Shown here: in pieces, positions 1,243 through 43,636 of the stretch
Numbering within the stretch: position 1 is the stretch's first letter
How the letters are laid out: each line of letters starts with the position of its first letter
From: Chitinophagaceae bacterium
GTDB lineage: Bacteria > Bacteroidota > Bacteroidia > Chitinophagales > Chitinophagaceae
Assembly: GCA_025449645.1 (NCBI GenBank)
Contig: JANWIY010000167.1
Span: 1-60,915, forward strand
Direction of reading: 5' to 3'
Length of the DNA: 60,915 bases
Notes under the pieces: generated by a model
Database searches by the model: none
What the model was told of the DNA's origin: nothing
The model's input: only the letters and a program-made list of their open reading frames with translations
Position numbers and translations under genes: made by a program

Positions 1243-3156
1243 ATGGGAAAAATAATCGGAATTGACCTCGGTACCACCAATAGCTGTGTTGCCGTAATGG
1301 AAGGGAATGAGCCGGTGGTCATTGCCAATGACGAAGGACGCAGAACCACGCCCTCCGTAGTGGCTTTCCTTAAAAACGGCGAACGCAAGGTGGGGGATCC
1401 CGCCAAGCGCCAGGCCATAACCAATCCGGTAAATACCATCATGTCGGTCAAGCGTTTCATGGGACGCAGATATGATGAAGTTACCAATGAAATAAGCCAC
1501 TGGGCTTATAAAGTGGTCAAAGGTGACAATAATACTTGCCGTATTGACATTGACGGCCGTCAATATACACCTCAGGAAATCAGCGCAATGATCCTTCAGA
1601 AAATGAAGAAAACTGCGGAAGATTACCTGGGTCAGGAGGTTTCGGAAGCTGTAATTACCGTGCCTGCCTATTTTAACGATGCGCAGCGCCAGGCAACCAA
1701 AGAGGCCGGTGAAATCGCTGGTCTGAATGTCCGGCGCATTGTGAATGAACCAACTGCAGCAGCCCTGGCCTACGGCCTGGATAAAGCAGGAAAGGATGAA
1801 AAGATTGCCGTATTTGACCTTGGCGGTGGAACATTTGACATATCCATCCTCGAACTCGGGGACGGTGTTTTCGAAGTAAAATCCACCAATGGAGATACCC
1901 ATTTGGGCGGTGATGATTTCGACAAGATCGTCATGGACTGGCTTGCTGAAGAATTCAAGAAAGAAGAAAATATGGATCTCAGAAAGGATCCCATGGCTCT
2001 TCAAAGGCTTAAAGAAGCTTCTGAAAAAGCAAAGATCGAATTGTCTTCTTCCACTGAAACGGAAATCAACCTGCCCTATGTTACCGCGGTGGATGGCGTC
2101 CCCAAACACCTTGTAAAAAAACTCACAAGGGCCAAATTTGAACAGTTGTCCGACAGCCTCTTTGAAAGATGTCTCAAGCCATGTGAGCAGGCATTGAAAG
2201 ACGCAGGCCTCCAGGCCTCCAAGATAGATGAAGTGATCCTGGTCGGTGGCAGCACCCGTATTCCCAAAGTGCAGGAAATTGTCGAAAAATTCTTTGGCAA
2301 AAAACCCAATAAGGGGGTAAACCCGGATGAAGTGGTTGCTGTAGGCGCCGCTATCCAGGGAGCCGTACTGACTGGTGAGGTAAAGGATGTTCTCTTGCTG
2401 GATGTTACCCCACTGAGCCTGGGCATCGAAACCATGGGTGGTGTGATGACCCGTTTGATCGAAAGCAATACCACGATCCCAACCAAAAAATCAGAAACCT
2501 TTTCCACCGCCAGCGATAACCAGCCCGGAGTTCAGATCCATGTATTACAAGGTGAAAGGCCCATGGCTAATCAGAACAAAAGCCTGGGTATGTTTAACCT
2601 GGACGGTATCCCGCCAGCACCGAGAGGCGTTCCCCAGATCGAAGTCATCTTTGATATCGACGCAAACGGAATCCTTCATGTAACTGCAAAGGATAAGGGA
2701 ACCAGCAAAGAACAAAAGATCCGCATTGAAGCAGGAAGCGGCCTGAGCAAGGAGGAAGTGGAAAAGATGAAAGCGGAAGCCAAGGCAAATGAAACAACGG
2801 ATAAGGCTGCAAGAGAAAGAGTAGACAAGCTGAATTTGGCCGACAGTCAGATTTTCCAGACGGAAAAACAACTGAAGGAATATGGCAATAAAATACCGGC
2901 TGATAAGAAAGCTCCGATCGAATCCGCGCTTGCTAAACTGAAGGACGCGCACAAGAGCCAGGACATCGCACAAATCGACGCAGTTATCGCGGAAATGAAC
3001 AACGCATGGACTGCCGCTTCAGAAGAAATGTATAAGGCAACACAGGGAGCCGGCAATCCATCAGGAGCAAATGGCGGCTCTAACACAGAAGGGCAACCGA
3101 ACAGCGACAAAACCGCGGAGAACGTTACGGATGCTGAGTTTGAGGAAGTAAAATAA
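1243..3156 (+). CDS. dnaK: Molecular chaperone DnaK (Hsp70)
   Basis: [47 protein letters not shown] and C-terminal DAEFEEVK. Confidence 0.99.
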
Positions 3157-3157
3157 T

Positions 3158-3230
3158 TAAATTAAAAAGTAAAAATTATAAAGTAAAAAAGTGTCCCTTT
3201 TTTACTTTATAATTTTTACTTTTTAATTTA
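3158..3230. repeat. Perfect 33-bp inverted repeat built of TTTTTAC-like heptads (hairpin/possible bidirectional terminator)
   Basis: Left arm 3158-3190 taaattaaaaagtaaaaattataaagtaaaaaa, loop gtgtccc, right arm 3198-3230 is its exact reverse complement. Confidence 0.9.
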
Positions 3231-6776: not shown

Positions 6777-7817
6777 ATGACCATTGAATATTTTTCCTTT
6801 AACCTTCGATTCAAATATCCTTTTACAATCTCCAGGGGAACCAAGACCCACCAGCCTACATTTGTCGTTTGCCTGGAACAATCCGGACTAAAAGCATACG
6901 GGGAAGCGCCGGCTATAACCTACTATCATATTCCCGTCGAAAAAATGAAGGCGGATCTTGCCGGAAAACTAAAGAGTATTGAAAAATTTGCATTCACCGA
7001 GCCTGAAAGATTCTGGCACTTTCTTCATCAGCTCCTTCCGGATAATGCCTTCCTCGTTTGCGCACTGGACATTGCGGGGTGGGACCTCTATGGTAAATTG
7101 AAAGAGAAACCGGTGTATGCCTGCCTGAACCTGGACATGCAGCAGGCACCACTGACTGACTATACCATCGGCATTGATACCATTGATAAGATGGTTCAGA
7201 AAATGCTGAAGACGCCCTGGCCGATTTATAAAATAAAACTCGGAACAGACCAGGACGCAGAAATTATCCGCGCACTTAGAAGCCATACGGACGCCACTCT
7301 GCGGGTGGATGCCAACGCCGGATGGGATTTGGATCAGGCGTTGGAAATTCTGCCAGCGCTCGCGGCCTGCGGCGTAGAATTTGTTGAGCAACCCCTGGCG
7401 AAAGATGATCTTGATGGCATGCGGGTCCTGTTTGAAAAATCGCCGCTGCCCCTAATCGCTGATGAATCCTGTGTGGACGAGCAGGATGTTGCAAAGCTAC
7501 ACGGTTTGTTTCATGGCATCAATATTAAACTCACCAAATGCGGTGGAATTACGCCCGCCCTCCGTATGATTCAGACAGGCCGCAAATTGAACATGAAGGT
7601 AATGGCCGGCGGAATGAATGAAAGCACAATCGGATCAGCAGCCGTCGGCCACCTGCTACCCCTTCTGGATTATGTTGATATGGACGGAATACTTTTACTG
7701 GATGAAGATATTGCCACAGGGTTATCCATTGAAAACGGCCGGGTTATCCTTTCCGGAAAACCAGGCCTTGGGATTGAATACACTAATTTATACAGCCGGG
7801 ACAGTGATGACAATTGA
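6777..7817 (+). CDS. Dipeptide epimerase (enolase superfamily, L-Ala-D/L-Glu epimerase-like)
   Basis: YKIKLGTDQD, RVDANAGWDLDQA, FVEQPLAKDD, IADESC, NIKLTKCGGITPAL. Confidence 0.88.
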   Translation: MTIEYFSFNLRFKYPFTISRGTKTHQPTFVVCLEQSGLKAYGEAPAITYYHIPVEKMKADLAGKLKSIEKFAFTEPERFWHFLHQLLPDNAFLVCALDIAGWDLYGKLKEKPVYACLNLDMQQAPLTDYTIGIDTIDKMVQKMLKTPWPIYKIKLGTDQDAEIIRALRSHTDATLRVDANAGWDLDQALEILPALAACGVEFVEQPLAKDDLDGMRVLFEKSPLPLIADESCVDEQDVAKLHGLFHGINIKLTKCGGITPALRMIQTGRKLNMKVMAGGMNESTIGSAAVGHLLPLLDYVDMDGILLLDEDIATGLSIENGRVILSGKPGLGIEYTNLYSRDSDDN

Positions 7818-7890
7818 CAATTGCAATTGACAATGGGCAATTGACAGTTTTTTACTTTTTACTTTTCACTTTTTACTTTTTAATTTGCAG
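7811..7890. repeat. Two adjacent heptad arrays: (CAATTGA)n at 7811-7844 and (TTTTTAC)n at 7849-7890
   Basis: caattga caattg caattga caatggg caattga, then tttttac tttttac ttttcac tttttac tttttaa tttgcag. Confidence 0.85.
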
Positions 7891-21762: not shown

Positions 21763-21804
21763 GGTTGATGGCTGATGGTTTGGTTGATAGTTGAGCCATC
21801 AACC
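21763..21804. repeat. TTGATGG-type heptad repeat folding into an 11-bp hairpin
   Basis: ttgatgg ctgatgg tttgg ttgatag ttgagcc; arms ggttgatggct (21763-21773) and agccatcaacc (21794-21804). Confidence 0.85.
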
Positions 21805-21823
21805 AACAAACGCGGTCCCATTA

Positions 21824-33531: not shown

Positions 33532-35259
33532 ATGGATGGAGCCATTCTGGCCAAAGTGAATAGCTGGTTAACCGGGAATTATGATGAAAATACAAAAGCA
33601 GAAATTGTCAGGCTGCAAAAGGAAAATCCGGAAGAACTTACAGAAAGCTTTTACCAGAACCTGGAATTCGGAACCGGCGGATTGCGCGGCATTATGGGCA
33701 TAGGCACTAACCGGATCAATAAGTACACAATAGGCATGGCCACCCAGGGTTACTCGAATTACCTGAAAAATTCCTTTCCTTCCCAGATGGTTAAAGTGGC
33801 CATTGCGCATGACAGTCGAAATAGCAGCCGTTTTTTTGCTGAGACTGCCGCCAAGATATTTGCGGCCAATGGGATCAAGGTTTTTCTTTTCCAATCCCTC
33901 CGGCCAACTCCAGAACTCAGTTTCACCATCCGTTATCTGGGCTGCCAGGGTGGTGTGGTTTGTACGGCCTCCCACAATCCCAAGGAATACAATGGATACA
34001 AAGCTTATTGGAATGACGGCGGGCAACTGGTGCCGCCGCACGACCATAACGTGATTGCTGAAGTGGAAAAAATCAGCTCGGTGGACGAAGTCAGGTGGAC
34101 TGGTGGCGAATCACATATCACCATGATTGGAAAGGAAATTGATGAAGCTTATATCAGTATGGTCAAAAACCTTTCTGTATATCCGGAAATCATAGAACTC
34201 CAGCACAACCTGTGCATCGTTTACACGCCGATCCATGGAACCGGCATCAAGCTGGTTCCCGATGTTTTGCAACGATTTGGATTCAGCAATGTGCACGTGG
34301 TGGATGAGCAGGCCGGGCCGGATGGTAATTTCCCCACCGTTTTGTATCCTAACCCCGAAGAAAAGGAAACGATGAGCCTGGGATTGAAAAAAGCTCGGGA
34401 AATCGATGCGGACATATTACTGGGAACCGACCCCGACGCAGACCGCGTCGGGGTCGGCGTTAAGAATGACAGGGGAGAATGGATTCTTCTGAATGGCAAT
34501 CAAACCGCGGTACTGGCTTTTAATTATCTGATAGAAGCCCGAAAGGTAAAAGGAATTGCACAGCCGAATGATATCGTAATAAAGACAATCGTAACTACGG
34601 ATATGATCGACGATATCGCCAGGGAAAGTAACATTAAATGTTACAATGTGCTTACCGGATTTAAGTGGATTGCTGAATTGATAAAAGAAAAGGAGAAAAC
34701 AGAAAATTATGTGATTGGCGGGGAGGAAAGCTATGGATTGATGATCGGTTCAAAACTTCGGGACAAAGATGCCGTGAGTGCAGTAGCAATCCTATGCGAA
34801 ATGGCCGCATACGAAAAAAATAGAGGCAAGACCTTATATGAGAAATTAATTGACCTCTATCTTCAATTCGGGTTTTATAAAGAATTCCTGATCTCGATCA
34901 CCAAAAAAGGAATGGATGGTCAGAAACAAATTGCCGATATGATGAGCACCTTTCGTCAAAATCCTCCGTCAACCATCAATGGGTCAGCCGTGATTCGCCT
35001 GCTCGATTACGAAACCCGTAAAGAAAAGAATCTTGGCACGGGCGAAACCAGGAATATCGAATTGCCGGCGAGTAATGTACTTCAGTTCATCCTGGAAGAC
35101 GGAAGCAAGATTTCCGCGCGACCATCGGGGACCGAACCCAAAATCAAATTCTATTTCAGTGTAAACGATAAATTAAAAACCATATCCTCCTTTCATGCCA
35201 TGGATGATTTATTGCAAAAAAGAATCGATGGCATCATCAGCGATATGAAGCTCATGTAG
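33532..35259 (+). CDS. Phosphoglucomutase/phosphomannomutase family
   Basis: TASHNPKEYNGYKAYW, GTDPDADRVGVG, GGEESYGLMIG, RPSGTEPKIKFY. Confidence 0.96.
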   Translation: MDGAILAKVNSWLTGNYDENTKAEIVRLQKENPEELTESFYQNLEFGTGGLRGIMGIGTNRINKYTIGMATQGYSNYLKNSFPSQMVKVAIAHDSRNSSRFFAETAAKIFAANGIKVFLFQSLRPTPELSFTIRYLGCQGGVVCTASHNPKEYNGYKAYWNDGGQLVPPHDHNVIAEVEKISSVDEVRWTGGESHITMIGKEIDEAYISMVKNLSVYPEIIELQHNLCIVYTPIHGTGIKLVPDVLQRFGFSNVHVVDEQAGPDGNFPTVLYPNPEEKETMSLGLKKAREIDADILLGTDPDADRVGVGVKNDRGEWILLNGNQTAVLAFNYLIEARKVKGIAQPNDIVIKTIVTTDMIDDIARESNIKCYNVLTGFKWIAELIKEKEKTENYVIGGEESYGLMIGSKLRDKDAVSAVAILCEMAAYEKNRGKTLYEKLIDLYLQFGFYKEFLISITKKGMDGQKQIADMMSTFRQNPPSTINGSAVIRLLDYETRKEKNLGTGETRNIELPASNVLQFILEDGSKISARPSGTEPKIKFYFSVNDKLKTISSFHAMDDLLQKRIDGIISDMKLM

Positions 35260-41678: not shown

Positions 41679-41987
41679 TTATTTTCCTGCCGGAATCTGG
41701 GGCAGGTTTCCTGAAGGGACAGAAGTAGGCGTTGCCTTTACGTCTCTAACCCGGTTTGTACCTGCTCTGGGAATAAACAAGGTGGAAAAAATACAAAATA
41801 GAGCTACCACTACCGCCAGTAACCAGGTTCCCTTTTCCAGCACGTTATTAGTCTGCTTTACACCCATGAACTGATTACTGAATCCGGCAACGTTTCCTGC
41901 AAGGCCGCCGCCCTTCGGGTTTTGAATCAGGATGATCAGCCCGAGTAATATGCAAGCCAGTAAAAGAAGGATAACAAAAAAGATCAT
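41679..41987 (-). CDS. secG: Preprotein translocase subunit SecG
   Basis: LIILIQNPKGGGLAGNVAGFSNQFMGVKQTNNVLEKGTW. Confidence 0.93.
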   Translation of the reverse strand: MIFFVILLLLACILLGLIILIQNPKGGGLAGNVAGFSNQFMGVKQTNNVLEKGTWLLAVVVALFCIFSTLFIPRAGTNRVRDVKATPTSVPSGNLPQIPAGK

Positions 41988-43636
41988 GATAAAGAGGCTT
42001 TTAATTGCTCAATTCTGGATGCAAAATAAGCGCTTTTAGGAGGATAAATCAAACTTAATTTCTGGTAAAGCGCAATGGCATTCTCATACATCCCCTGCTT
42101 GGCCAGCACTTCTGCCATAGTCTCGGTCAGAATATCCCTGTCTTCTATGGAACTTGCCGCAAACCGGCGGATTCGTTCTGCTTCCCGGTCGTCGGGTTTT
42201 TCGGCGAGAGCCTGGGCGGGAAGTCTTTTCATCACCTTGAGCCAGTCGGTGAAACTTTTCAGCTGCCTGCCAAACTGATCTGTGGGATGATCTTCAACGG
42301 TCAGCCCGATTCCCTGTGAAGCGAAATAATCGATCATGTGATATGGCTCTAAAACAATCGACTCTGCTTTTTTTGAGTCGAACGGGGCATGAGGCTCCTT
42401 GATGGTTGATAGTTGATGGTTGATGGTTGATCCGGATTCTGCAAATTCCACATGTATTGGTTCTGCGGGCCGGGGATCTTCGTATTTTTCATTTATTGAA
42501 ATTGCCTCTCCCGGCTCATTGTTTTCTTCGTTGATGGCCTCGTTCCCCGCGGCGAATCCTGGAGGGGGTGATGATTCATGGTTGACGGAAGATTCTGCTT
42601 CTGCAAATTCTTCATTTATTGTTTCTGCAGGCCGGGCTTCTTCGTATATTTCGTTAACAATTATTGTTTCCTCTCGAGCCGCGAATTCTTCATTTATTGT
42701 TTCTGCTGGCCGGGCTTCTTCGTAATGCGCATTAACTGTGGTTGTTTCTTCAGGAGCCGCGAATTCTTCATTTATTGTTTCCGCAGGCTGCGGTTCTTCG
42801 TATTTTTCGTCAACAATAGTTGTTTCCGCCGCGAATTCTTCATTTATTGTTTCTGCTGGCCGGGGTTCTTCGTATTTTTCATTAACAGTTGTTGTTTCCT
42901 CAGGAGCGACAAATTCTTCGCTGATGACCTCGCTCCCGGAAGCGAAACGTAGGTGGGTTGATGCTTGAAGGTTGATGGGAGATTCCGTTTCTGCAAATTC
43001 TTCATTTATTGTTTCTGCGTTCTGGGCTTCTTCGTATTTTTCATTCACAGTTGTTGTTTCTTCCGGAGCCGCGAATTCATCGTTGACGCTCTCGTGTCCC
43101 AAGGCAAAACCCAGAGGGGTTGATGCCTGATGGATGACAGGAGATTCTATAATTGCCTCATCATGCTCCTGATATTCGCTGAAGGTTGACGCCTGATAGT
43201 TAACAGGAGGTTCCGTTTCCTGGTATTCCTCAGCAATTGCCCCGGCTGGCTGCGGTTCATTGAATTCCTGAATGAATGTTGGAATGGACGGTTCCTCATT
43301 GGCATATTCTTCACTGATTTCGATTGCCGGTTGAGGTTTTTCAAAGTTAGATGCGTGATCAGGGATCAGAAAGTTATCGCCTGTAACAGGCATTTCGTTC
43401 TCTTCCTCGAGCAGGGATTGTAACCAGACCGGATTGTTAAAATACAAAGCCGTTTTCATCGTCTCCCTGAGATAAGCCTGATCATTTTCCAGCTTTAATT
43501 TTTTTGAAAGCAGGAAATGGGCCGCATTGAAGGATGGAAATTCGTTGATTACCGAATGAATTTCTTCCAGTGAAATTTCCTCCAGATTTTGTTTTCCAAA
43601 TATGGAATCTAACAGGGATGGCATGCTGCTTGTCAT
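41984..43636 (-). CDS. TPR-like protein with a low-complexity acidic repeat expansion in the middle
   Basis: C-terminal AEVLAKQGMYENAIALYQKLSLIYPPKSAYFASRIEQLKA; central 26-aa repeats EEFAAPEETTTVNEKYEEPRPAETIN. Confidence 0.85.
   Translation of the reverse strand: MTSSMPSLLDSIFGKQNLEEISLEEIHSVINEFPSFNAAHFLLSKKLKLENDQAYLRETMKTALYFNNPVWLQSLLEEENEMPVTGDNFLIPDHASNFEKPQPAIEISEEYANEEPSIPTFIQEFNEPQPAGAIAEEYQETEPPVNYQASTFSEYQEHDEAIIESPVIHQASTPLGFALGHESVNDEFAAPEETTTVNEKYEEAQNAETINEEFAETESPINLQASTHLRFASGSEVISEEFVAPEETTTVNEKYEEPRPAETINEEFAAETTIVDEKYEEPQPAETINEEFAAPEETTTVNAHYEEARPAETINEEFAAREETIIVNEIYEEARPAETINEEFAEAESSVNHESSPPPGFAAGNEAINEENNEPGEAISINEKYEDPRPAEPIHVEFAESGSTINHQLSTIKEPHAPFDSKKAESIVLEPYHMIDYFASQGIGLTVEDHPTDQFGRQLKSFTDWLKVMKRLPAQALAEKPDDREAERIRRFAASSIEDRDILTETMAEVLAKQGMYENAIALYQKLSLIYPPKSAYFASRIEQLKASLS
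42598..43080 (-). repeat. Degenerate ~78-bp coding tandem repeats
   Basis: Recurrent gcgaattcttcatttattgtttctgcnggccgggnttcttcgta. Confidence 0.9.

Follow-up and report, generated by a model that had tools for sequence, protein, structure and literature searches.

Non-coding repeat DNA has repeatedly been turned into protein sequence in the genome of the Chitinophagaceae bacterium examined here (G000). We consider it likely that heptanucleotide repeats, scattered through this genome chiefly in the form of intergenic palindromes, made their way into permissive protein linkers and loops in several genes through slippage, template switching, ectopic copying and selection. The evidence consists of a dispersed repeat family, turnover of its sites, agreement between the arms of its elements, lineage-limited entry into a host gene, and peptides whose origin lies at the level of DNA. 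Entry into genes appears from comparison among genomes rather than from direct observation of a transfer from donor to gene.

The window, i.e., the whole stretch of DNA that was analyzed (60,915 nucleotides), is an entire contig (C167) of G000, whose assembly amounts to 3.59 Mb in 190 contigs and is 86% complete; all sequences compared, from relatives in the Chitinophagaceae and Bacteroidota, are metagenome assemblies. The host gene encodes a protein in which a Pfam search matched no domain. An AlphaFold2 run that used an alignment of four sequences gave confident helices at about residues 10-75 and 500-549 and a pLDDT below 50 for most of residues 79-480; helical N- and C-terminal domains are thus connected by a long acidic repeat linker that is unstructured, and all five heptad clusters of the gene lie within this linker. 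The features of the gene are:

41984..43636, minus strand: host gene between lptE and secG, 550-aa protein (ORF, Pfam, orthologue alignment, AlphaFold2)
42399..42433, minus strand: cleanest of the coding arrays, reading (CCATCAA)4-5 on the coding strand and giving the peptide STINHQLSTIK (sequence, shuffles, recoding test 0/20000)
42568..42588, minus strand: degenerate coding heptads, VNHESSP (sequence, reading frame)
42606..42919, minus strand: acidic coding repeat tract of about 78-nt (26-aa) units, without heptads (TRF)
42834..43147, minus strand: super-unit of about 162 nt with heptads, two copies (TRF)
42958..42978, minus strand: degenerate coding heptads, INLQAST; counterpart INDQPSTIN in the relative G156 (orthologue comparison)
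43120..43140, minus strand: degenerate coding heptads, VIHQAST; counterpart ISHQPSTIN in G156 (orthologue comparison)
43186..43206, minus strand: degenerate coding heptads, VNYQAST; counterpart xQPSTIN in G156 (orthologue comparison)

The coordinates, sequence and minus-strand peptides (INHQLST and the four degenerate peptides listed) are exactly those of the original prediction. The cleanest array reads directly as TTGATGG, TTGATAG, TTGATGG, TTGATGG and TTGATCC, and each of the degenerate clusters contains three heptads. Three consecutive TTGATRG units, allowing up to three mismatches, match four times in the window, always inside this ORF, and never in 100 dinucleotide shuffles; two units with up to two mismatches match 12 times, compared with 1.9 ± 1.4 in dinucleotide shuffles. 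The proposed co-amplification of heptads with the 26-aa units holds for the 162-nt super-unit, though not for every 26-aa unit.

Genome-wide, the heptad proved strongly enriched in G000 and mostly intergenic, as had been expected: the exact TTGATRG double-unit (TTGATRGTTGATRG) occurs 249 times (132 + 117), against 6 (1 + 5) for the reversed control. Among 90 arrays of at least two units, 74 are intergenic and 16 overlap predicted ORFs (several of these being overlaps with ORF ends or with ORFs of doubtful start), where ORFs occupy 89% of the bases; these figures come from 676 kb, comprising the window and 40 stretches mostly chosen for hits, and densities are accordingly biased upward. There were 32 arrays of period seven in 168 kb; a Markov control gave 2, and neighbouring periods gave 1-6. 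An Rfam 15 search of the window and four element-rich stretches matched only tRNA, and a survey of the open-access literature, with subscription papers outside its scope, returned no paper on Chitinophagaceae heptads or on such a combination of features.

Many heptad arrays are the arms of one main element, in which (TTGATGG)n is followed by a conserved, imperfectly palindromic 28-nt core (consensus ATTTCAGGTGCGGATTCGCAAnTAAAGT) and then by (CCATCAA)n. When neighbouring arrays are on opposite strands, TTGATGG comes before CCATCAA by 27 to 0, and the commonest spacing is 28 nt. At up to three mismatches, the core alone matches 67 times in G000, 46 in G156 and 94 in G178, compared to 2-12 in the other 30 genomes of the genus; the same core also occurs with other arms (TGGATGG, TTGACGG, TTTATGG and TATATGG). 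The two arms of an element agree in heptad kind, with a mean of 1.76 mismatches versus 2.47 ± 0.10 after re-pairing (0 of 2000 re-pairings as low; the effective sample is smaller than 63, as some palindromic cores were counted on both strands). Base-level RNA covariation across 19 elements did not exceed that of shuffles, and therefore we make no claim of a functional RNA.

Elements are enriched between convergent genes (13/37 versus 42/276 gaps of at least 60 bp; Fisher p = 0.005), and those in codirectional gaps mostly start between -18 and +31 bp relative to the upstream stop. Comparison of orthologous gaps reveals their turnover: a full element faces a remnant in four pairs (L167/L066, L168/L083, L189/L185 and L201/L078), an element faces none in two others (L187/L266 and L185/L196), and the heptad kind itself has switched in L196/L067, which has a TTGACGG element in G178 and an AAAAAGT-type element in G000. 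Outside the host gene, the window contains:

3146..3229, no strand: palindrome with unrelated heptad arms AAAGTAA / TTTTTAC and the same architecture (intergenic)
7808..7886, no strand: period-7 arrays TGACAAT and TTTTTAC (at gene 3' end)
21765..21809, no strand: small coreless inverted pair of heptads in the gap between recF and the DUF721 gene (intergenic)

The last of these had been described as a hairpin of the same heptad; a small inverted repeat is indeed present, without the conserved core of the main element.

The likeness between coding and intergenic heptads extends beyond the encoded peptides. When six heptad peptides were recoded with the codon usage of G000, the observed heptad match was reached at most once in 20000 trials per peptide; because synonymous recoding cannot reproduce it, the match resides at the DNA level. 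The two strands of the repeat differ in what they permit: (CCATCAA)n is free of stops in all frames and yields the same repeating peptide, PSTINHQ, in each (three heptads making seven codons), whereas (TTGATGG)3 contains TGA in every frame. As such, one arm alone can persist in a gene but a whole hairpin cannot, and within genes the heptads are found on the stop-free strand only. Coding arrays comprise CCATCAA arms with no clear remnant of the core, and so the donor could be a plain array; single-arm coding copies are expected from selection alone and are no proof that only arms insert. A core-like stretch directly after position 42433, beside the cleanest array (GGATTCTGCAAATTC), was out of register and was rejected as a core remnant.

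Relatives of the host gene are present in 143 of 150 family genomes, with conserved ends and a middle that is not conserved. Among the orthologues read, G156 is the only carrier of heptads besides G000: its copies are near-perfect, consist of purer CCATCAA than those of G000, and match them in position (the counterparts listed above, and QPS(T/S)IN for INHQLST), in a gene that is broken across two contigs at the repeats and has the same sequence as PLEB01000350 of palsa_953 (PLEB01). Apart from G156, no heptad peptides were found in the genus orthologues read or in about 30 loci across the family, and no orthologue encodes the same peptides with non-heptad codons, in keeping with the original prediction. 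The genome G178 has the intergenic heptad family and a host gene with acidic TVNEEY-type units that lacks heptads, which implies that the acidic repeat type is older than the heptads. In a tree of the C-terminal domain, G000 and G156 form a clade (96/87), with G178, G164 and G154 adjacent. Since the heptads of the host gene occur in G000 and G156 and not in G178 or the other orthologues read, they entered before the split of G000 from G156. The state of G178, with heptads between genes but none in this one, agrees with the proposed order, in which the repeat was intergenic first and genic later, and what can be followed into the gene is the arms, the entry of a whole hairpin being unsupported. 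Because G178 groups with G164 and G154, both without the heptad family, this distribution requires either loss or horizontal gain.

Only G000, G156 and G178 are element-rich among the 33 genomes of the genus. In stretches of which some were picked for heptads, period-7 arrays exceed all neighbouring periods in G000, G156, G178, G161, G162, G163 and G154; G130 and G164 have few such arrays or none. The leading units are AACCATC in G000 and G156, ACCATCC and AACCGTC in G178, AACCGTC and AACCGCC in G161, and AAAGCCT in G162. In part of G162 (L264/L261-L263), AGGCTTT, GTTGGCG, TTAAGCG and TCAACTG adjoin one another in long mixed arrays that lack the 28-nt core. Beyond the genus, 20 samples of 20 kb showed a comparable period-7 excess only in G112, G072 and G028; the counts per 20 kb were 21 in G112 (L293) and 10 in G072 (L291), which belong to other genera of the family and have other units, and the strong excess in these two indicates that period-7 abundance crops up sporadically across the family. 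The element itself is not family-wide, given that a search for the TTGATGG hairpin found 79 in G000 and 0-22 in other genomes.

Further coding arrays were sought with four copies of PSTINHQ in long open frames, and the claim that the repeat is a source of new protein sequence was borne out, albeit for several invaded genes and not as a single event. Alignment to relatives without the arrays backs those in PheS (G000, G178 and G162), MetH (G000, G156, G178 and G161) and the gamma-glutamyltransferase of G000, which still has a short run of GCGTTCA next to its CCRTCAA arrays; the gamma-glutamyltransferase of G162 has a GCGTT-type heptad in the linker where G000 has CCRTCAA. Coding heptads in an anti-sigma-like protein (G000, G156 and G178) and in the MutL linker of G156, at a contig end, are supported by reading frame and not by alignment. 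The coding CCATCAA-type arrays encode linkers or loops (PheS, MetH, gamma-glutamyltransferase and the anti-sigma-like protein), even in PheS, a tRNA synthetase subunit that is essential.

In MetH of G000, the array is inserted sequence that the solved structure 4ccz lacks. The PheS linker is of ordinary length compared with chain 4p71_C, from which it follows that heptads replaced linker sequence; its seven-base self-match is 21/21 in G000 (CCATCAA), 21/21 in G178 (CCATCCA) and 19/21 in G162 (CCGYCAA), versus 7-16/21 in nine other genomes. In a predicted permease of an ABC transporter (L183, on contig C177 of G000), heptads precede the first membrane helix in frame and no clear ATG follows them; this array may belong to the N-terminal coding sequence. 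Inspection by eye led us to reject NuoL, DapA and a nitrilase-like ORF as carriers, their start codons being downstream of the array. Two heptad-like units in frame in the phosphoglucomutase gene of the window (34966-34979, NPPSTING) were set aside as probably due to chance; NPPxxIxG is presumably a native motif of that enzyme.

The differences among PheS arrays suggest that the heptads within genes are rewritten to follow the one current in each genome, but MetH of G156 does not fit, in that it carries CCGTCAA when CCATCAA dominates that genome. A broader version, in which a genome-wide heptad pool overwrites intergenic palindromes and protein linkers alike and coding arrays are rewritten as the common heptad of a lineage changes, is possible although we would not favor it. 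If true, the turnover of non-coding repeats would drive concerted evolution of linkers in essential proteins.

A different origin for these sequences would be a miniature element of the MITE or REP-like kind, mobilized by a transposase and leaving coding heptads as its insertions, much as Rickettsia palindromic elements do. The conserved core, inverted arms, dispersed copies and presence or absence at orthologous sites would all suit such an element, as would in-frame coding copies, which are known from Rickettsia (PMC10969869). Against this, Y1_Tnp (the RAYT transposase, the only type searched) was absent from G000 (86% complete), G156 and G178 when control genomes were positive; the length and heptad kind of the arms vary; coding copies are single arms without core; and in G161 and G162, which do carry heptads, the core is no more frequent than background. 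We view this origin as unlikely. On a par with it is independent expansion in place, by slippage within each gene and with no copying from intergenic copies. Slippage alone is able to build and homogenize an array, and the PheS arrays differ cleanly between species; yet the coding units are words common genome-wide in these species, which local slippage does not predict.

Very little weight attaches to the idea that these are contingency tracts, in which the gain or loss of one 7-nt unit switches a gene on or off by frameshift. Such a unit does shift the frame, a tandem tract of four to five units is present, and simple repeats act in this way in host-adapted bacteria (PMC4679880). However, the tracts are short and four of the five in the host gene are degenerate, the MetH genes of G000 and G156 differ by 14 codons, a multiple of 21 nt, and a gene as indispensable as PheS carries one. 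Selection for INHQ(P/A)ST as a protein motif, with its DNA likeness to the intergenic heptad due to coincidence or composition, is hardly credible and is already contradicted by the present data: the peptide is found five times in one protein, but the recoding trials, the same DNA in unrelated genes and gaps, and the other heptads and peptides in the same linkers of sister species all oppose it.

Under the preferred reading, that of intergenic heptads entering permissive linkers, the heptads would have been in the host gene by the common ancestor of G000 and G156, and its arrays would have been duplicated together with the 162-nt coding repeat, four of the five having since decayed in G000. 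Replication slippage would alter the number of units. Template switching, which homogenizes the arms of inverted repeats in other organisms (PMC8604942, PMC8794818), would keep the arms matched and, along with ectopic copying from the genome-wide pool, could bring heptads to new sites. Selection would then purge coding copies except for those that keep the frame in tolerant, disordered linkers. The peptide itself probably does nothing specific apart from serving as an acceptable disordered linker.

For gains of protein from non-coding DNA, the donor family, the invaded genes and their uninvaded sisters are rarely all caught, and here they can be compared within one genus. The case is also relevant to the reported, as yet unexplained preference of many bacteria for repeats of seven bases, and it cautions against reading PSTINHQ-type linkers of conserved genes as conserved motifs when they consist of repeat DNA.

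Among known systems, the TAACTGA heptamers of Beggiatoaceae, cyanobacteria and some Bacteroidetes are likewise seven-base tandem repeats, mostly intergenic and patchy among species, with stops in all frames on one strand and reverse-orientation copies in ORFs (PMC4679880). The TTGATGG units of G000 differ in forming inverted arms that flank a conserved core, mostly close to the 3' ends of genes. The TAACTGA repeats comprise 169 direct sets and one indirect, upstream of starts and with no core, and most of their coding copies occur at the ends of proteins or in ORFs that are short or hypothetical (PMC4679880), as opposed to internal linkers of PheS and MetH with known uninvaded orthologues. The GGGAATC / GGGGAYT heptamers of Xanthomonas and Nostoc are also over-represented in gaps, near starts and stops, but are of G-quadruplex type, form no palindromic element and are under-represented in coding regions (PMC4692102). 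REP sequences with their RAYT transposase resemble our elements in being palindromes scattered between genes, often close to 3' ends; however, the three carrier genomes have no Y1_Tnp, and the arms in G000 are tandem heptads. Rickettsia palindromic elements are likewise dispersed and palindromic, and they too occur in frame within unrelated genes, as heptads do in PheS, MetH, gamma-glutamyltransferase and the host gene; but their units are about 150 bp and are translated over the whole body (PMC10969869), whereas the genes of G000 translate arm heptads without the core, and the arm kind of the heptad element changes between species. The closest kinds are thus bacterial heptamer repeats and Rickettsia palindromic elements, each of which shares part of the features described here.
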